Positions 2,036-39,925 of a stretch of 64,000 nucleotides of DNA are shown piece by piece. The notes under the pieces are model-generated. The model was not told where the DNA came from. It made no database searches and worked only from the letters and a program-made list of their open reading frames with translations. The stretch is taken from contig JAKFVA010000012.1 in NCBI GenBank assembly GCA_021732385.1, positions 1 to 64,000 on the forward strand. The letters run 5' to 3'. This DNA comes from Burkholderiales bacterium (GTDB taxonomy: Bacteria > Pseudomonadota > Gammaproteobacteria > Burkholderiales > Burkholderiaceae_C). Position 1 is the stretch's first letter. Each line of letters starts with the position of its first letter. The translations under genes were made by a program, and so were the position numbers.

Positions 2036-3065
<1,030 letters not shown>

Positions 3066-3878
3066 TCAAAATGCTGTAAAAACTCGGCGAATTCGCGCCA
3101 AATCCTCTGGCGTGTCAACGCCCGAAGCCGGTGCCTGCTGCGTCACATGCACCGCGATGCGCAGCCCGTGCCAGAGCACACGCAACTGCTCCAGTGATTC
3201 CGTCAACTCAAGCGGTGCAGGTTGCAGGGCAGGGAAGCGGCGCAAAAAGGCGGCGCGATAGCTATACAAGCCAATGTGGCGCAGGGGTTGGCCCTTCAGC
3301 CAGCTTGCATCAGTGGCATTCAGCGTTGGGCCAGTGGCAGCTGCGGCGGTAGGCAAGTCAGTCTGTGGGGCCAAGCTTGCATCGCGCGGGTAGGGAATTG
3401 GTGCGCGGCTGAAGTAGAGCGCCTGGCCTTGGGCGTCCAAAACCACCTTGACCACGTTGGGGTTTAAAAAATCCGCGAGCGTTTGCACCGGATGTGCAGC
3501 GGTGCCCATGCTGGCCTGCGGGTGCCGGTTCAGCAAGGCCGCTACCTGGTTGATGAGGGCTGGGGCAATCAGCGGTTCGTCTCCCTGCACGTTGACTACC
3601 ACTTCATCATCTGCAAGGCCCAGCAGATCGCAGGCTTGGGCCAGCCTGTCGCTGCCGCTGAGATGGTGGGTGCCCGTCAGCACGGCTTCAACGCCATGCG
3701 CCTTGCAGGCTTCGGTGATCGCCTGGCTGTCGGCCGCCACCACCACGCGCTGCGCGGCGGATTGAGCGGCTTGCCGTGCCACCCGCACCACCATTGGCTG
3801 GCCGCCAATGTCTGCCAAAGGTTTGTTCGGCAGGCGGGTCGAAGCCAAACGGGCGGGAATTAAAACGGTGAAGCGCAT
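3066..3878 (-). CDS. kdsB: 3-deoxy-manno-octulosonate cytidylyltransferase
   Basis: Activates KDO to CMP-KDO for lipopolysaccharide inner core synthesis in the cytoplasm. The N-terminal nucleotide-binding block [20 protein letters not shown] is the family signature, followed by SGSDRLAQA and [10 protein letters not shown] (about residues 75-105). At 270 residues it is about 20 longer than usual; the extra residues lie around 165-190 in an Ala/Thr-rich loop before HIGLYSYR. It is followed on the same strand by nothing closer than the adk gap, and preceded by the Trm112-like gene and lpxK, so it likely forms an envelope-biogenesis transcription unit exbB-exbD-lpxK-Trm112-kdsB. Confidence 0.96.
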
Positions 3879-3905
3879 CGCAGGCAGGCTGATCGGGGCG
3901 GTGAT

Positions 3906-4088
3906 TTACAGGCCCAACTCTTCGTCAGTCAGTGGGCGCGCCTCGTTTTCCAGCAGGATGGGCATGTCGTCTCGCACCGGATAGGCCAGGCGGGCGCTGC
4001 GCGACACCAGCTCTTGCGCCGCCTTGTCGTAGTGCAGCGGGCCTTTAGTGACGGGGCAGACCAGCAGTTCAAGCAGTTTGGTGTCCAT
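3906..4088 (-). CDS. Trm112 family protein
   Basis: A 60-residue YcaR/Trm112-type protein, [20 protein letters not shown], ending LTDEELGL. The family is small, and in other organisms Trm112 activates methyltransferases; the bacterial role is not settled. Only one cysteine remains of the CxxC pairs seen in zinc-binding members. An in-frame TTG lies at 4097, three codons upstream of the ATG used here. No Shine-Dalgarno is visible, because the 5' region is a run of A and G on the plus strand (4096-4122). It sits between lpxK and kdsB, a common order in Burkholderiales. Confidence 0.85.
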
Positions 4089-4126
4089 GCGTGCCAATAA
4101 AAAAAAGAAAAAAGAAAAGAAGTTGG

Positions 4127-5185
4127 CTAGGCCTCAGCGGATGATAGCGGCGCGCCTGACCCAGCGGGCAGTTGCCGCGCCAGCCAGGCTTCGAGCGCCG
4201 CCAGAAAGGCGGGCTCCAGCGTCATGAACAACGGCACGGCCAGCGCATCGGGCGCATGGGGCCACAGTTTGACGGCGTCTTTTTCAGTGCAAATCAGGCG
4301 GTAAGGCTGGTCTATTGGCCGGATAAAAAGATTGAAATCACAGTGATCGGGCAGCGCCAGCGTACGTGCCAAGGGCAAGCCATGGCTACGCAGCATGGCA
4401 AAAAACGCCTCGGGCTGGGCAATACCGGCCAGTGCCAGCAGCGGTTGTTGGCTGGTACGCAGTTCGCTCAGCGCGACGCGCTGGCCATCGCTGCGCCAAG
4501 CATAGTCGGCCAGGCTGCGTTTGGCGAGAAAGCCTGCCATGCCTGGCCCTTGCGCAGCATGTTCACCGGTGTGCAGCACCAGACGGTTTGCGCAGGGTGT
4601 GTAGCGGCGCGGCCAAGGCTCTCGCAATGGCCCGGCGGGCAACAGCCATCCGTTGCCTACTCCGCGGTCGTCAAACACGCAAATTTCAAGATCACGCTGC
4701 AAGCTGTAGTGCTGCAAGCCGTCGTCGCTGATCAGCAACCGCGTTTGGGGGTGGCGTGCAAGCAGGGCGCGAGCCGCTTCGGCACGGCTGGGCGCGACAA
4801 AAATCGGCACATGCAAGCCAGCTGAAGCAAAGTGGCGGGCTGCCAGCAAAGGCTCATCACCCACCTGATCGGCAGTGCTGCCGGCCAGCACTTCAAGGCA
4901 GTTTTTGCTGCTTCGGCCATAACCGCGCGAGATCATGCCTACCGACCAACCCTGCGCGCACAGATGCACTGCAAGCGCCATGACTACCGGTGTTTTGCCC
5001 GCGCCGCCCGCCACCACATTGCCCACCACCAGAACTGGCACATCGATCTTTTCAACCGGCGAGCGGCCACTGGCATAGCCGTGCTGGTGGATAGCCACCA
5101 AAAGAGCGTACAAGCGCGAAAGTGGCCACAAGGCGCGCGCCAACCAGCCGCGGAGCAGCCAGGCGCGTTGCAAGGCCTCGCGCAT
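4127..5185 (-). CDS. lpxK: Tetraacyldisaccharide 4'-kinase
   Basis: Phosphorylates the 4' position of the lipid A disaccharide at the inner membrane. The N-terminus [19 protein letters not shown] is the membrane-associated helix typical of LpxK, followed by [17 protein letters not shown], which contains the P-loop, and [17 protein letters not shown] is the conserved catalytic aspartate block. I chose the ATG at 5185 (352 residues) over an in-frame one at 5239 because the latter would overlap exbD and add a non-family extension. It lies 16 nt downstream of exbD, so the two are likely cotranscribed. Confidence 0.95.
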
Positions 5186-5201
5186 GGCTGCTCGGCAAAC
5201 C

Positions 5202-5630
5202 TCAGCGGCCTTCGGCACCAGCCGAGGTCTGGGTGGCAAAGGTAATTTGCGACAGGCCGCTGCGCCGCGCCGCTTCCATCACGGTAATGACTGACTGGTG
5301 CGCCGCGCTGGCGTCGGCGCTGATGACGATGACGCTGTCTTTGCCCGCCTTTGCGGCGGCACTGATGGCGCGGGCCAGCAGGTCAACGCTGCGGCCTTCA
5401 AGTGGTATTTTGTTGATTACGTAGCGCCCGTCGCTGCTGACAGCCACAATGATTTCCTTGGGGTAGTCACGCTGGGCATCGACATCGGCCACCGGTAGCT
5501 TGAGCTGCAACTCGGTGAATTTGCTGTAGGTGGTAGTGAGCATTAAAAAAATCAGCACCACCAGCAGCACGTCAATAAACGGGATCAGGTTGATCTCGGG
5601 CTCGTCACGCGCGCCTTTGCGGAAATTCAT
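5202..5630 (-). CDS. exbD: ExbD/TolR family proton-channel subunit
   Basis: A single-pass inner membrane protein that pairs with the ExbB/TolQ-type channel to couple proton flow to outer-membrane work. The N-terminus carries [18 protein letters not shown] with the conserved proton-path aspartate (IDV) in the only membrane segment, followed by a periplasmic domain ending [13 protein letters not shown]. The ATG at 5630 is used; a TTG two codons earlier (5636) overlaps the exbB stop. At 142 residues it has normal length. No TonB gene lies nearby, so the client is unknown, and the position beside lpxK suggests an envelope role. Confidence 0.92.
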
Positions 5631-5632
5631 GT

Positions 5633-6280
5633 TCAAACGATTTTGCGAAGTGTATTGAGATGACGCACAAACCGCTCACTGGCCAGCTCAAGCTGGAGCA
5701 GGTAGGCATCAACCCGGCCACGAAAATAACGCCAAAAAATCAGCGCCGGAATGGCCACAATCAGGCCAAATGCCGTGTTGTACAGCGCAATTGAAATACC
5801 TTGCGCCAGTTGCGCCGGATTGCCCGTGCCCACGGCCGAGCCAGCGGCACTGCCAGGTGCTTGCGAGCCAAAAATCTCGATCATGCCAATGACCGTGCCC
5901 AGCAGCCCCAAGAGCGGCGCGGCCGAGGCGATAGTGGCCAGCGCGCTGAGGTAGCGCTCCAGCCGATGCGCCACTGCACGGCCACAGCCTTCCATTGCGG
6001 CACGCAAATCGGCTTCGCTGCATGCGGGGTTGGAATTGAGCGCCCTGAAACCACTGGCCAGTACCTCGCCTAGCGCAGAGTTTTGCTCGAGCTGCGTCAC
6101 CACATCTGGAATCGGCACGGCGGTACGTGAAACGGTCAGCGCTTCATCTAGCAGCTTGGGCGGTGCGACTCGGCTGGCGCGAAGGCTGACGAAACGCTCA
6201 ATCACCAGTGCCAGCGCTAATACCGAGCAGGCAATCAGGGGCCAAATCGGCCAGCCTGCGGCTTGTATGATGGACAGCAA
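5633..6280 (-). CDS. exbB: MotA/TolQ/ExbB proton channel family protein
   Basis: A 215-residue inner membrane channel subunit with three predicted membrane segments (about residues 10-30, 110-135, 160-185). The segment SAAPLLGLLGTVIGMIEIF is the diagnostic ExbB/TolQ signature, and ALYNTAFGLIVAIPALIFW is the last helix. Translation appears to begin at TTG 6280, preceded by GGAGAG; no nearby ATG fits the family N-terminus. The stop codon is adjacent to the exbD start, implying coupled synthesis. TolQ versus ExbB cannot be separated without the partner genes; no tolA, tolB or tonB is seen. Confidence 0.92.
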   Translation of the reverse strand: MLSIIQAAGWPIWPLIACSVLALALVIERFVSLRASRVAPPKLLDEALTVSRTAVPIPDVVTQLEQNSALGEVLASGFRALNSNPACSEADLRAAMEGCGRAVAHRLERYLSALATIASAAPLLGLLGTVIGMIEIFGSQAPGSAAGSAVGTGNPAQLAQGISIALYNTAFGLIVAIPALIFWRYFRGRVDAYLLQLELASERFVRHLNTLRKIV

Positions 6281-6397
6281 GGGGAGTCTCTCCAGAGTCA
6301 GGTTAAGGCCGTGTCAGCTTTGGATTATGGCCTAGCCACTGGTGGCACCGGCCGTCGCAATCCAATGCGCTTTGCGTTGTGCAGCGCAAGGTCAGAC

Positions 6398-6416
6398 CCA
6401 CAGTTCCTGTGGATAA
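6398..6416. promoter_or_regulatory. DnaA-box-like sequence with short palindrome
   Basis: TGTGGATAA at 6408-6416 is a perfect match, on the minus strand, to the DnaA box TTATCCACA. It overlaps a palindrome, CCACAG-TTC-CTGTGG (6398-6412). It lies in the 236-nt gap between the divergent exbB and xseA genes. A single box is weak evidence for regulation by DnaA, and may be chance. Confidence 0.35.
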
Positions 6417-6516
6417 CTTTGTGAAAAAGCGGGGCTCCAACCGGCTGCAAGCCGCACCACTACTGCAATGCGACAGATTGATGACATTTTGAGCATAAAA
6501 AAGATTAATAAAATCA

Positions 6517-7914
6517 ATGACTTGTATGGATAGTCCTGCATTTTCAAAGGGTTTTTCGGCTTATTCCGTTGTGTCAGCAACTACGGCAAACCCCATACAG
6601 CCCGAGCCCACCAGGGTCTGGCCGGTAGGCACTTTGTGCCTAGCGATTGGACAAGCACTGGATTTGCAGTTCAACCCGGTGCAGGTAGTGGGCGAGATCA
6701 GCGGTTTTTCACGTGCGGCCAGCGGGCATTGCTATTTTTCGCTCAGAGACGCACAGGGACAAATTCGTTGTGCCATGTTCCGCCGCGTCGCCATGCAACT
6801 GGATTTTTCGCCGCAAGAGGGTGAACGGGTCGAGGTGGCTGGACAGTTGGGCGTGTACGAACAACGGGGCGATTTGCAGTTGGTTGTGCAAAACATGGTT
6901 CGCGCCGGGCAGGGCGTGCTCTATGCACAATTTTTGCAGCGCAAGGCACGGTTGGCTGCACTCGGTTTGTTTGACGCCAGCCGCAAACGGGCTTTGCCAG
7001 CGCAGCCGCGCGGCATTGGCTTGGTCACTTCGCTGGGCGCAGCCGCCTTGCACGATGTAATTAGCACCTTGCAGCGGCGCGTGCCCCATATTCCGGTGTT
7101 GATTGCGCCGGCTTTAGTGCAGGGCGCGCAAGCACCGGCTGAGTTGATTCAAGCGCTATCAAACTTGTACCACTATGCGCAGTCCCCGGAAGGGCTGCAG
7201 CCTGCTTTTAATCTGGACGTAATCTTGCTGGTGCGTGGCGGTGGCTCGCTAGAAGATTTGTGGGCTTTCAATGACGAAGCGCTGGTGCAGGCCATTGCCC
7301 AAAGCCCGGTACCAGTGGTCAGCGGGGTGGGTCATGAAACCGACTTTACCCTGGCCGATTTTGTAGCCGACTTGCGCGCGCCCACGCCCACCGCCGCAGC
7401 TGAATTGGTGGCGCCGGCGCGTGAAGTGGCACAAAGCCAGCTGGACGCCCTGGCGCGGCGTCTGCAAGATACCTGCTCGCGCCAACTTGATCGCTGTAGC
7501 CAGCAACTCGATGGCGCTGTAGCGCGCCTGGGGCGGCCTTCAGGCAGGCTGGCACACCAGCAGTTGTGCCTGGCTCAGCAAGGCGAGCGGCTTCGCTGGG
7601 CACTATTGTCGACTCACCAGCAACACAAAACTCGCTGGCTAGGCCATCAGCAGCGCCTGCCACATCAATTGCAGATCGCCTTGCAGCGCCAGCAGCAGCG
7701 CCTGGAGCGGGCACAACTGAGGCTCGATTTGCTCAATCCGCGTTTGGTTTTACAGCGTGGCTATGCTTGGCTTACCCAGGTTAATGGCTCAGATGCCGGT
7801 AGTCCCGGCGACACCATCAGCCGTATTGGGCAAACCTGGCCTGGCCAGCAATTGCGTGCCACCCTTGTGGATGGTGAGCTTGATTTGCAGGTGTTGCCGC
7901 AGCCGCCCGCTTAG
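6517..7914 (+). CDS. xseA: Exodeoxyribonuclease VII large subunit
   Basis: The large subunit of the ATP-independent single-strand-specific exonuclease VII, acting in DNA repair. It has an N-terminal OB-fold domain (about residues 30-125, with [20 protein letters not shown]), then the catalytic domain with the conserved [31 protein letters not shown] and [17 protein letters not shown] blocks, then a long Gln/Arg/Leu-rich coiled-coil region (about 300-420). At 465 residues it is normal to slightly long. A second ATG lies three codons in. The small subunit gene xseB is not in the window. It runs divergently from exbB. Confidence 0.96.
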
Positions 7915-30575: not shown

Positions 30576-30603
30576 TATTAACATAATACACATCGTATAA
30601 AGT
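30576..30603 (-). other. dif: dif-like Xer site, left junction (attL)
   Basis: Read on the minus strand: XerC-side arm ACTTTATACGA, centre TGTGTA, XerD-side arm TTATGTTAATA. The XerD arm matches the E. coli dif arm TTATGTTAAAT at 9 of 11 positions, and the centre matches TGTATA at 5 of 6. The XerC arm matches poorly. In the interpretation given for the element, the XerD arm is chromosomal and the XerC arm came from the element. Confidence 0.75.
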
Positions 30604-30643
30604 TAAATCTCAGCCTAAGGCACTATCCAAAGCCAAAGCAAAA

Positions 30644-31888
30644 GTGCGCAAACCCGCGCCCAGCTTGGCAGAAACAGGCAAACGCTTCAAAATCGCCCTA
30701 TCCCAAGCGGGCCTAAGTCAGCAAGGAGCCGCGAAAGAATTTCACGTAACGCAGCGCACTATACAGAACTGGCTAAACGGTAAAACCCGCGTACCGGCCA
30801 GCGCGTTGCACTTAGCGCGCATATTGTCAAAATGGGCGATACCGCTGCCTCAGTGGCAAGGCTGGTGCTTTCACTCAGGCAAGCTGTGGACACCCGAGGG
30901 CCGCGCTATAGGGCCCCATGACGGCTCATGGTGGTCACTGCTGGTCAGGCAGGCACGCGGCTTTATGACCTTGGTGGAGGAACGCCGTCGACTTGAAACT
31001 GAACTGTCTAAAGCACGCAAGGCAGGTTACCTACAGCCCGACTACTTAGGTATTGCCGCTCCCTCCATGGATGCACAGCGCCATGCGGGGAGCGGCGAAG
31101 CCGCTGGGCTTGTCCCAGTATCAACAACTCAAAAGCGTCTACCCAATTCTATTGAATCCGATATCAATATAGCATCAGGCTTATATCAAGCCGATATCCA
31201 ACCCGGCTATAATGCCAAGTATCACAACGATTACGTATTGATATCATGTCCTACCCGCTTCGCTTACCCGAGCCGCTCAACAGCCAAGCCCGTGCCCGTG
31301 CACAGGCCATCGGCATCAGCTTCAACGCCCTTGTGTGCGTTGCCATGGACTACTACCTGCGCAGTGGACAATCACTGTACAAACCATCAGGTACAGACGG
31401 GCAACCCGATGCCGGGCAATCCAGCCAGCCAAAGCCCAGTGCAGGCCTTGCAGCGCCCGGACAAGCAAAGCAACCGCCCGGACACCCCACAGACAGCGAA
31501 ATTGTCCAGCACTTGGCCATGCAGCGTAGTCAAACAGCCACCGACAGAAAACGACTGCGCCAACAAATTCGTGCCTCCCTCAAACCCTGAGACAGCCGCC
31601 TTGCACCGTCCATGGGATACGGGTTCCGCTCCTGCGTCGCAACCGTCAAACCTTCTTGATCGAGCAAGTCTGTTGGCCTCGCCAGTGACCTACGAGCATG
31701 CTGAGGAGATCGTGGATTCCTGCCTAACTCTATTGCCAATTGCCCAAGCTGTTGCACAAAATCCAGAGTGCGCACACTGGGGTATAGAGGATTTCTTGCT
31801 TTATATCTGCAGCGTTGCAGTAAAGGTATACGACGCCAAAGGCGCGTCAGCGCCCGACCTCTATCAAGCCACGGGGGTACTGCAATGA
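30644..31888 (+). CDS. VC1465/XafT-like Xer recombination activation factor, 5' end separated by integration
   Basis: The first 125 residues match the DUF3653 family: a helix-turn-helix (GLSQQGAAKEFHVTQRTIQN, about 23-42) followed by WQGWCFHSGKLWTPEGRAIG and GSWWSLLVRQARGF. In TLC-phi, the family member XafT activates XerD recombination at dif. No ATG start exists here; the frame opens at 30587 inside the dif-like site, and GTG 30644 is the first usable codon. Joined to the ATG at 32232 across the attachment site the frame is continuous. Beyond about residue 200 the frame overlaps the regulator gene at 31246, so that part may not be protein. The last 100 residues (DRASLLASPVTYEHAEEIVD onward) may be a separate domain or gene. 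Confidence 0.65.
   Translation: MRKPAPSLAETGKRFKIALSQAGLSQQGAAKEFHVTQRTIQNWLNGKTRVPASALHLARILSKWAIPLPQWQGWCFHSGKLWTPEGRAIGPHDGSWWSLLVRQARGFMTLVEERRRLETELSKARKAGYLQPDYLGIAAPSMDAQRHAGSGEAAGLVPVSTTQKRLPNSIESDINIASGLYQADIQPGYNAKYHNDYVLISCPTRFAYPSRSTAKPVPVHRPSASASTPLCALPWTTTCAVDNHCTNHQVQTGNPMPGNPASQSPVQALQRPDKQSNRPDTPQTAKLSSTWPCSVVKQPPTENDCANKFVPPSNPETAALHRPWDTGSAPASQPSNLLDRASLLASPVTYEHAEEIVDSCLTLLPIAQAVAQNPECAHWGIEDFLLYICSVAVKVYDAKGASAPDLYQATGVLQ
31160..31245 (+). promoter_or_regulatory. Promoter with GATATC motifs before the RHH regulator
   Basis: A perfect TATAAT at 31208-31213 lies 32 nt before the ATG at 31246; the -35 region is poor. The hexamer GATATC occurs at 31160-31165, 31193-31198 (just upstream of the -10) and 31240-31245 (touching the start codon). 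This pattern suits autorepression by the ribbon-helix-helix protein. In the circular form the same promoter would lead through the small membrane gene to the xafT start. Confidence 0.5.
31246..31590 (+). CDS. Ribbon-helix-helix (Arc-like) DNA-binding protein
   Basis: 114 residues. The N-terminal 45 residues, with PLRLPEPLNSQARARAQAIG then SFNALVCVAMDYYL, have the strand-helix-helix pattern of Arc/MetJ repressors. The rest is Pro/Gln/Ala-rich, ending in a basic helix, RKRLRQQIRASL. It is fully nested, in another frame, inside the long open frame that starts at 30644. The TATAAT upstream and GATATC motifs indicate it is expressed from its own promoter. It probably controls the element, including the activator in the circular state. 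Confidence 0.7.
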   Translation: MSYPLRLPEPLNSQARARAQAIGISFNALVCVAMDYYLRSGQSLYKPSGTDGQPDAGQSSQPKPSAGLAAPGQAKQPPGHPTDSEIVQHLAMQRSQTATDRKRLRQQIRASLKP

Positions 31889-32214
31889 CACTGGCACAAC
31901 GCATCTACGCTCAATGGATAGCATGCCAAAGCATTGCCAGTCAGCCAAGCCGCTATGTGAGTGACGCGAAGCGGCCAAGCCGTTTGGAGGGGTACCCGAC
32001 AAACCAAACCCGTTCGCAGGAGCAAGGCACGCAGCGAACTGCGACGGGTGCCGCCTATCAGGGGCTGGCTGTGCGCGGCACGGGCCTACCCCTGCCAAAC
32101 CCCTTGCCTCGCGCCCTGAGGGCCTTAAAACCAACGCAATCAGGCTTGTCATTGCCTGAGCTACTGGCCGTGCTAACCCTTTTGATGCTCACGCACCTTT
32201 ACTTTGGTCTATAA
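31885..32214 (+). CDS. Small protein with C-terminal prepilin-like membrane segment
   Basis: 109 residues starting MTLAQRIYAQWIACQSIAS, with the ATG overlapping the stop of the preceding frame (ATGA) and GGGGGT upstream. The middle is polar and unstructured-looking. The C-terminus, SGLSLPELLAVLTLLML and HLYFGL, is one hydrophobic helix that carries the type IV prepilin pattern G/L-S-L-P-E with glutamate at +5. The protein stops right after it. No family is recognised. It could be a small coat-like or membrane protein of the element or a pilin fragment. Confidence 0.55.
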   Translation: MTLAQRIYAQWIACQSIASQPSRYVSDAKRPSRLEGYPTNQTRSQEQGTQRTATGAAYQGLAVRGTGLPLPNPLPRALRALKPTQSGLSLPELLAVLTLLMLTHLYFGL

Positions 32215-32231
32215 ACGAAAGAATTTCCATC

Positions 32232-32327
32232 ATGAAAATTACCTCGCAATACACATCGTATGCAGTAAAAGATTTGGCCGTTAAAGACTACAAAGGCCTT
32301 CAAAGCAAGGACGGGCTGAGTTGCTGA
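32232..32327 (+). other. Detached 5' end of xafT running into chromosomal DNA
   Basis: ATG 32232 opens MKITSQYTSY, then crosses the attachment site into chromosomal DNA and stops after 31 codons at TGA 32325-32327. In the closed circle, the codons TAC ACA TCG TAT that end the shared core continue at 30599 with AAA GTT AAA, in frame with the HTH domain. The first ten codons thus look like the true xafT start. The last 21 codons in this arrangement are probably not meaningful. Confidence 0.6.
32239..32266 (-). other. dif-like site, right junction (attR), degenerate XerD arm
   Basis: Read on the minus strand: XerC-side arm ACTGCATACGA, centre TGTGTA, then TTGCGAGGTAA in place of the XerD arm. 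The centre and XerC arm match the left site at 15 of 17 positions, while the XerD arm is not recognisable. By the element model this XerC arm is chromosomal and the degenerate arm is from the element, so the original dif would be this XerC arm plus the left-site XerD arm. Confidence 0.65.
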
Positions 32328-38215: not shown

Positions 38216-39925
38216 TCATTGGGCAATGCAGGACTGGTGGCGCTTGAGCACCGTGGCTGGAGGCAGGGAATTGCCTCCCAATACAGCGCGTGACCAACTG
38301 AAGTGATTCAACGTGTTGGGGATATCCATGACAAACTCAGTTTGACACGCGCTGGCCTTGAAGTCGGTCATCAGCGCGTAAGTGCGGGACAGTCCTCGCA
38401 TTGGCCCAGTGCCATGCAGGAGGTGGTTGCGATCTTGAAGCACGGTCTCGACAAAACCGGTGCCAGGGGTATAGACAACAGTTGCCCACCGGGTCTGCCC
38501 ATAGGCCAGCCAAGTCAGGTAGTTGGCCTCGTAAGTCCATAAAGACCAGGGCAGCAAGCCATTGATTTTGATATCAATCAAACCAGCAGGGGGTGGTGCT
38601 TGTGCTTGCAGCGCTTTCACGATGGCGGCTTCCTGCGCAAAACGTAGTTGCTTGGCACCATGGCCATGCCATTGCCAGGCCAGATGTGTAAGCACGGCCA
38701 CCGCCACCCCACCAACCCACAGGCCGCTGGCGGAGGCAGTTGATCCAATCCGCGCAATAGCCAGTTTGATTAACCAAGCGCTGGTCAGACTGGCTGGAAC
38801 ACTAAGCAAAAAGGTGTGGCGGGCAGACCAGCCATCAACCGCTGTATAAAACCAAGCGGTCGTTTGACTGCCTAGATGGGTGGCTGTACCCAAAAATTTG
38901 GGAGCTACGTTAATTACAAAAAGAGGCGCACCTTTGCCCACCGCTATATAAGCAAACAATGCACCCATGCACAACAGAGCAAGAATGCCAAACGCCTTTG
39001 GAGACGTTTGCATCGTGCTGCTAAGCGCGACGGGATGCGACTGCGCTACGTCGCCTTGGTTTTTGGTCGCCAGGCCACGGGTCTTCAGCCAGTTGGCTGC
39101 AAGCCAGACCAGGCAAGCCGGGCCAATCACCAGGGGTATCCAGGTCATAAACATCAGGCCAGCGCGTAGCCAGGCAATTGCACCAGCGGCAGAAATTGGC
39201 CAGATCAAATTGTTGTAACCCGCATAGTTGCCTGTCGTTGTGAAAACGAACCGCAGCATCAGGTAAACCAGCACAGCGGTTGCGCAAACCAAGGCGCTGC
39301 GCCGGTAATTCCAACGAACTGTGGGTTTGCGTGCAAGCCAGCGCGCGGCTTCAAGCGCGCACACCATCACAAAATTTGAGTTGACCTGAAACGATGTCAG
39401 CATCAGCAAATACCCAAGGCATTGTTTTGGGCGATGCCAACGGCTTTCAGTGGCAGGCGCATGCAGCAGGCGATGCCCCAAAAACCCCCACCAAATAAAC
39501 ACAATGTAGACAAATGTGCTGCCATACAAGAGATACCAGCAGGGAAAACTAAGCGCCAGCATGCTCACGGCCCAGCCTTCGGGTTGGGTCATGCCTAGCA
39601 AGTCAATTGCCAGGCGGCGTGCTTCCCATGCAATGCCCAGCACGCTTAGAGTCAAAAGCAATTTGGCTGCGATCCAGGACTCAAACGCCAGGTGGTTTGT
39701 CAACCAGGACAAGCTCCGGAAAATGGCGTACATCAGGTCCCAGTTACCCGGCACCAGCCAGTCATAAATACCAGCCAAGTCGCCAATAGCTATGCCATAA
39801 CTGCCAATGATGCCGTCCCATATGTCACGGCTCACTAGCCACAAGGGGCCGATAGAGAGCAATGCGGTGGCAATGAATCCAGCCACCCAGACCCAATGGG
39901 GCGGTGTATGTCGAGAATCCGTCAT
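38216..39925 (-). CDS. Polytopic membrane protein, possible GT-C-type glycosyltransferase
   Basis: 569 residues with about ten or more hydrophobic segments covering residues 12-430 and a C-terminal soluble part (about 440-569). The first loop contains SRDIWDGIIGSYGIAIGDLA, an acidic loop after TM1 as in GT-C enzymes, where such an Asp is catalytic. No family can be named with certainty. Placement beside an O-antigen ligase-like gene, and near gtrA and gtrB-like genes, makes transfer of a sugar from a polyprenyl carrier in the periplasm plausible. This is inference. It lies 30 nt downstream of the ligase gene, on the same strand. Confidence 0.75.
   Translation of the reverse strand: MTDSRHTPPHWVWVAGFIATALLSIGPLWLVSRDIWDGIIGSYGIAIGDLAGIYDWLVPGNWDLMYAIFRSLSWLTNHLAFESWIAAKLLLTLSVLGIAWEARRLAIDLLGMTQPEGWAVSMLALSFPCWYLLYGSTFVYIVFIWWGFLGHRLLHAPATESRWHRPKQCLGYLLMLTSFQVNSNFVMVCALEAARWLARKPTVRWNYRRSALVCATAVLVYLMLRFVFTTTGNYAGYNNLIWPISAAGAIAWLRAGLMFMTWIPLVIGPACLVWLAANWLKTRGLATKNQGDVAQSHPVALSSTMQTSPKAFGILALLCMGALFAYIAVGKGAPLFVINVAPKFLGTATHLGSQTTAWFYTAVDGWSARHTFLLSVPASLTSAWLIKLAIARIGSTASASGLWVGGVAVAVLTHLAWQWHGHGAKQLRFAQEAAIVKALQAQAPPPAGLIDIKINGLLPWSLWTYEANYLTWLAYGQTRWATVVYTPGTGFVETVLQDRNHLLHGTGPMRGLSRTYALMTDFKASACQTEFVMDIPNTLNHFSWSRAVLGGNSLPPATVLKRHQSCIAQ

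Follow-up and report, generated by a model that had tools for sequence, protein, structure and literature searches.

An RHH (ribbon-helix-helix) regulator gene lies wholly inside the 3′ half of a xafT-like frame, in another reading phase, in a small mobile element of the 64,000-nucleotide stretch of DNA analysed here (hereafter the window; the genome assembly that contains it spans 2.6 Mb). Both frames are open over the whole of the inner gene in ten of ten related elements. In the explanation that we favour, to which we assign a probability of roughly 0.7, the nested protein would be a repressor that acts on a promoter marked by GATATC boxes and that, by way of the circular form of the element, would set the production of a recombination activator, the long frame being kept open through stop/start coupling with the gene that follows. 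Judging from sequence comparison, nesting of an RHH gene in a xafT-like frame appears to be a family-wide design, which combines traits of RHH autoregulators, of TLC-like dif elements and of the nested genes of small phages.

A dif-integrated element with a XafT-like frame

The element is a unit of 1,663 bp (30588..32250, + strand) bounded by copies of ACACATCGTAT at 30588 and 32251. The dif-like XerD half-site TTAACATAA adjoins the left copy and none is present to the left of the second copy (Table 1). Seven of the nine other loci with nested elements have TTAACATAA or TTAAACATAA left of the core, and neither was seen for L084 and L090. This layout matches the attP of the TLC phage as given in PMC4246890, where the XerC half and the centre are dif-like and a XerD-like half is missing; the window element likewise uses a dif-like site, the XerD half of its attP being degenerate. 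TLC satellite phage and XafT-type dif elements (IMEX) resemble the window element in being small dif-integrated circles with a similar attachment site (same paper), and a hypothetical protein of TLC-Kn1 gave a weak match (32% over 68 aa, E 0.04) to the HTH-DUF3653 protein of the window. Unlike these elements, that of the window is without a recognised replication gene, holds a nested RHH gene in its xafT-like gene and has almost zero intergenic DNA. An Rfam search gave no match.

Table 1. Features of the element and its surroundings, with coordinates in the window.
Feature	Position	Strand	Basis or remark
Left attachment site, dif-like	30577..30604		XerD-type half (..TTAACATAA), centre, XerC-type half TCGTATAAAGT; sequence
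xafT-like frame	30587..31888	+	433 codons without stop; HTH_3 and DUF3653 above Pfam cut-off
Folded core of XafT-like protein	30665..31021	+	residues 27–145: HTH, DUF3653, long helix; Pfam and AlphaFold model
GATATC candidate operator, copy 1	31160..31165		sequence; comparison
GATATC candidate operator, copy 2	31193..31198		within spacer of promoter candidate
TATAAT, candidate −10 of regulator promoter	31208..31213	+	sequence; equivalent place holds strong predicted promoter in L090 and L091
GATATC candidate operator, copy 3	31240..31245		ends at RHH start codon
Nested RHH regulator gene, 114 aa	31246..31590	+	wholly inside 30587–31888, offset by 2
Helical end of long frame, residues 368–432	31688..31885	+	AlphaFold model
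Next gene, 109 aa, single hydrophobic C-terminal stretch	31885..32214	+	ATG overlaps TGA of long frame
xafT start codon and first codons in circle	32232..32250	+	circle reconstruction
Right attachment core	32251..32261		bases to the left unlike XerD half-site

In the integrated copy, the first ordinary start of the long frame is GTG 30644, and in the reconstructed circle ATG 32232 is in frame with it through the attachment core, which would give a protein of 439 aa. HTH plus DUF3653 is a make-up that we take to be that of XafT, and XafT-like is used here on that basis. The AlphaFold model of the long frame is folded in parts at residues 20–145, has pLDDT values of 33–52 from about residue 151 to 360 and is helical at 368–432. 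XafT itself is described in PMC9765430 as activating XerD without FtsK. Between the folded core and the first GATATC box, the window reads GGGCTTGTCCCAGTATCAACAACT at 31106–31129, a sequence that is almost the same in L090 and L091 and that has the counterpart GGGCTTGTC[TC]CATCTAAAACAA in L002, L007, L084 and L085; the stretch, which includes TTGT-N-ACAA, may be bound by the XafT-type HTH or may mark the edge of a module.

Matches were obtained in 24 of the 399 genomes of the family searched, the window's own genome included; presence of the RHH gene in the loci was checked by tblastn, and viral contigs were added later by a search with a xaf profile. An RHH gene is wholly nested in nine further elements (L002, L006, L007, L012, L084, L085, L090, L091 and L092), and the relative phase is the same in all ten elements (window included) for which sequence matching gave an RHH of this family. 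These make up 10 of the 36 distinct xaf cores in the core tree, in which L002_124 is a non-nested tandem copy; at one other locus, L039, an RHH-like ORF of different build follows the xaf stop and is not nested. Scans of the viral contigs with the window protein and with query A1 gave no match, and the scan with query A4 gave four loci; in the annotated plasmid and phage collections there was no match for nested-type proteins at E ≤ 1e-5. In L091, element copies are in tandem (2945–6567) with a period of 1,958 bp, and are identical across the 1,667 bases compared.

The nested RHH gene and its GATATC boxes

The preliminary description of this DNA had placed an Arc-like regulator gene at 31246, inside 30587–31888 and in another phase; its coordinates are correct, the structure model is of RHH type and the gene is nested in relatives as well. 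The start at ATG 31246 is backed by an equivalent ATG in relatives from the nine other elements, and no ribosome-binding sequence was found upstream of it. In the AlphaFold model of the protein, helices at residues 9–22 and 26–43 follow an N-terminal stretch, with confidence of 93–94 at residues 11–30, and the top PDB matches of the model are CopG, AmrZ and Arc, none of them at E ≤ 0.001. By its modelled fold the product is thus an RHH (MetJ/Arc) regulator with an N-terminal strand and two helices, the strand not being called in the monomer model. No RHH family of Pfam was above its curated cut-off for the window protein.

GATATC occurs 11 times in the 64 kb of the window against 2.66 expected. 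Three copies lie within 110 bases upstream of 31246, a number never reached in 2000 shuffles (mean 0.19), and the corresponding 110 bases hold three copies in L084, L090 and L091 and two in L085. GATATC is found upstream of the RHH gene in five of five elements with YPLRL as the RHH strand and in none of the five with other strands; each of the five GATATC elements has a box no more than 10 bases from the start codon of the RHH gene. L090 and L091 serve as a test of this association, because they were recovered later by the xaf profile and GATATC was not used in finding them. The three copies put forward in the preliminary description as a candidate operator (31160, 31193, 31240) are therefore not only where they were said to be but also tied to the YPLRL type of RHH. 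Moreover, boxes 1 and 2 of the window share one phase of the xaf frame and box 3 is in another, and the boxes of L084 use three phases; such occurrence in more than one reading phase argues that GATATC is a DNA signal. Two more copies, 249 bases apart, lie outside the element at 38321–38575.

Where N replaces P in the strand (L006 and L012), TGGGGCCA is repeated at 11 bp, and in L007 it is TGACGT that is repeated at 11 bp. On the RHH tree, the YPLRL (P) type can be read as a single group (78% of bootstraps), so the association of box and strand may be a single evolutionary event. On the xaf-core tree, YPLRL elements fall in three places (window, L084/L085 and L090/L091), and this combination of one RHH group with separate core positions indicates that the RHH gene is passed on with its boxes as one module. 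The pairs of strand and box (GATATC with YPLRL, 11-bp-spaced TGGGGCCA with the N type) provide a small natural set for studying DNA choice by RHH proteins.

Known RHH autorepressors of the CopG and Arc type have short repeated boxes at their own promoter. The window gene is like them in its fold and in the repeats of a short box at its promoter candidate; it differs from them in that gene and candidate operator are inside another gene and in its long variable tail. Such tails, long and variable among the members of this RHH family, would also suit an antitoxin-like or accessory factor, for instance one acting in a replication or recombination complex, with the boxes serving another use. The best Pfam hint for the window protein is indeed the HicB antitoxin (E 0.068, 13.5 bits against a cut-off of 21), and a HicB-type match at E ≤ 1 was obtained for eight of the ten RHH members, the best at 5e-5. 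Nonetheless, Pfam and PHROGs recognise no toxin partner beside the RHH gene, and the box close to the RHH start in five of five GATATC elements, together with the boxes that flank the strong promoter of L090 and L091 (below), fits an operator of the gene itself, making an antitoxin or accessory role distinctly unlikely.

Promoter, circle and proposed regulation

The preliminary description had also assigned a promoter to the regulator. Its TATAAT at 31208 is perfect and stands at −38 from the RHH start, but no −35 within the allowed spacing is better than ATCAAG (2/6), so that the promoter is weaker than had been stated; it was not listed by the tool scan and came third in our own scoring across the 1,663-bp unit. 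The scanned stretch of L090 and of L091 has a single promoter-like site, TTGACA-17-TATGAT, whose −10 is 42 bases before the RHH start, with GATATC boxes on both sides of it. By score, the promoter upstream of the RHH gene ranks first in L007, L012, L090, L091 and L092, sixth in L084, eighth in L002, 16th in L006 and 21st in L085.

The circles of L002 (1,392 bp) and L006 (1,518 bp) have zero intergenic bases, with genes that overlap also across the attachment site. L092 goes furthest: its whole circle (2941–4181, 1,241 bp) is a single xafT frame of 413 codons, the stop and start of which overlap (TAATG), with the RHH gene nested in it. In the window circle, 17 bases separate the 32214 stop from ATG 32232. 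The tandem units of L091 have a gap after xaf, the xafT ATG of the second copy being to the left of the attachment core, and L007 is an exception, with its ATG inside the left end of the element. Because these circles are nearly without intergenic DNA, the promoter has to be sought within coding sequence in several elements, and so is likely to be inside xafT. Also in agreement with the preliminary description, transcription started here would, in the window circle, reach the xafT start by way of the small gene at 31885, ATG 32232 being in frame through the core.

From this gene order and the conserved boxes we infer a regulatory circuit. The 114-aa protein would most likely bind GATATC at 31160, 31193 and 31240 as dimers and repress the promoter lying among these boxes. 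The circle transcript would run through the RHH gene, the rest of the long frame and the 31885 gene, cross the attachment site and enter xafT at ATG 32232, and as this promoter reads round the circle into xafT, the repressor would set the amount of recombination activator made. Judging from the junctions, translation of the genes would be coupled through stop/start overlap. Repression of recombination by the RHH protein is plausible. In a lone integrated copy, xafT is upstream of the promoter and without its ATG, so that activator should instead come mainly from circles or tandem copies; such a shut-off by integration is not certain, as a shortened XafT could then still be translated from GTG 30644. 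A more general picture, which we hold tentatively and at slightly less than even odds, is that these satellites are gap-free circular operons, in which stops overlap the next starts through the attachment site and the sole promoter and the repressor are inside xafT, and that integration, by separating xafT from its start codon and promoter, switches the activator off. The nested arrangement suggests how a mobile element of 1.2–2 kb could accommodate an autoregulated switch with hardly any DNA to spare, promoter, operators and repressor being placed inside the gene that would drive recombination, and it offers a way in which the activator could be silenced by integration itself.

Openness and selection in the overlapping frames

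Over the RHH gene, the xaf frame is without stop in ten of ten elements, and the third phase has 1–10 stops. When synonymous codons were shuffled, the xaf frame stayed open with a chance of 0.044 in the window and of 0.055 to 0.33 in the other elements; the product for eight elements (L085 and L091 left out as near relatives) is ~3e-8 on the assumption of independence, which does not hold in full. In six of the ten nested elements, the stop codon of xaf overlaps the start of the gene that follows (ATGA or GTGA). At the end of xaf, L012 has TGATG, L092 has the TAATG with its own start, and L090 and L091 are without such a junction. Stop/start junctions are present also in the non-nested L003, L005, L009, L010 and L040 to L042, where xaf frames are mostly shorter. 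That xafT functionally ends at about residue 150, with openness over the regulator being unselected, would fit the high G+C, the chance of 4–33% for any single sequence and the lack of visible amino acid conservation; the joint probability over the less related elements, all ten frames being open, and the stops placed on the next start codon in nested and several non-nested elements alike render this quite improbable.

Close pairs allow the two frames to be compared by codon position. Between L090 and L091 there are 25, 19 and 48 differences at RHH codon positions 1, 2 and 3 over 158 codons, and 21, 43 and 20 in the xaf frame of the same region, most of them thus at position 2, with 50 nonsynonymous versus 7 synonymous codon differences. 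For L084 and L085, the differences by RHH codon position amount to 10%, 7% and 55% for the domain, against 30%, 31% and 56% for the tail; converted from these rates, the pair differs at about 36, 36 and 82 sites. Since these close pairs differ mainly at RHH third positions, the nested gene is under selection; the codon-position comparison in relatives that the preliminary description had proposed as a check favours the RHH frame in two close pairs, the opposite of constraint on the long frame only. L002 and L007 have a flat profile without third-position excess.

The flat L002–L007 profile would be expected also if the xafT tail over the RHH gene were a functional protein segment under selection, both frames then being conserved. 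Such true dual coding would account as well for the xaf frame being stop-free in every element and for the outcome of a permutation test of xaf-frame similarity against an RHH-only null, which was above zero in 10 of 12 pairs (12 chosen out of 45) and in the control phase in 4 of the 12. The z values were, however, −0.3 to 1.8, so that no pair exceeds 1.8; the changes between L090 and L091 are concentrated at xaf position 2 and are mostly nonsynonymous, and the modelled xaf tail over the RHH gene has the low pLDDT of 33–52 given above. We therefore regard dual coding as unlikely, and sequence comparison points to weak constraint, at most, on the xaf-frame amino acids over the RHH gene.

We thus return to stop/start coupling, by which the long frame would be open over the RHH gene because its stop is placed on the start codon of the next gene. 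In our reading, xafT translation runs on to this junction across a passage without sequence demands of its own. The preliminary description had offered a choice between a long frame that is real past residue 200 and one that is open by chance; the frame is indeed stop-free beyond chance in all ten elements but its amino acids are not visibly conserved, and neither alternative fully holds, because the frame is kept open yet as a disordered passage.

Genes nested in other genes are familiar from small ssDNA phages, such as E in D of phiX174 and X in II of filamentous phage. The window resembles these in having a whole gene within another, and differs in that its nested gene, a candidate regulator, has its own putative operator and in that the outer frame shows no sequence conservation where it overlaps that gene. 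In the titles and abstract openings of the literature surveyed, none describes a nested RHH gene in a satellite, small dif satellites of this kind or GATATC/RHH operators.

The helical end of the long frame, downstream of the RHH gene, is possibly a fused downstream gene, according to the model. Its match to a separate downstream gene of L084 is weak (22 residues) and tentative. The xaf end of L011, L027 and L086 carries, fused in frame, a domain that L005 encodes as a gene of its own (WSEVTEGAGVVLVD), an arrangement that resembles this helical end. In the 31885 gene that follows, the stretch 31955–32010 around GGGGTACCC resembles the DNA of the same gene in relatives and is possibly a replication or packaging signal; its counterpart in L002 and L006 encodes GYG..PHGSEAKRPEGYP.
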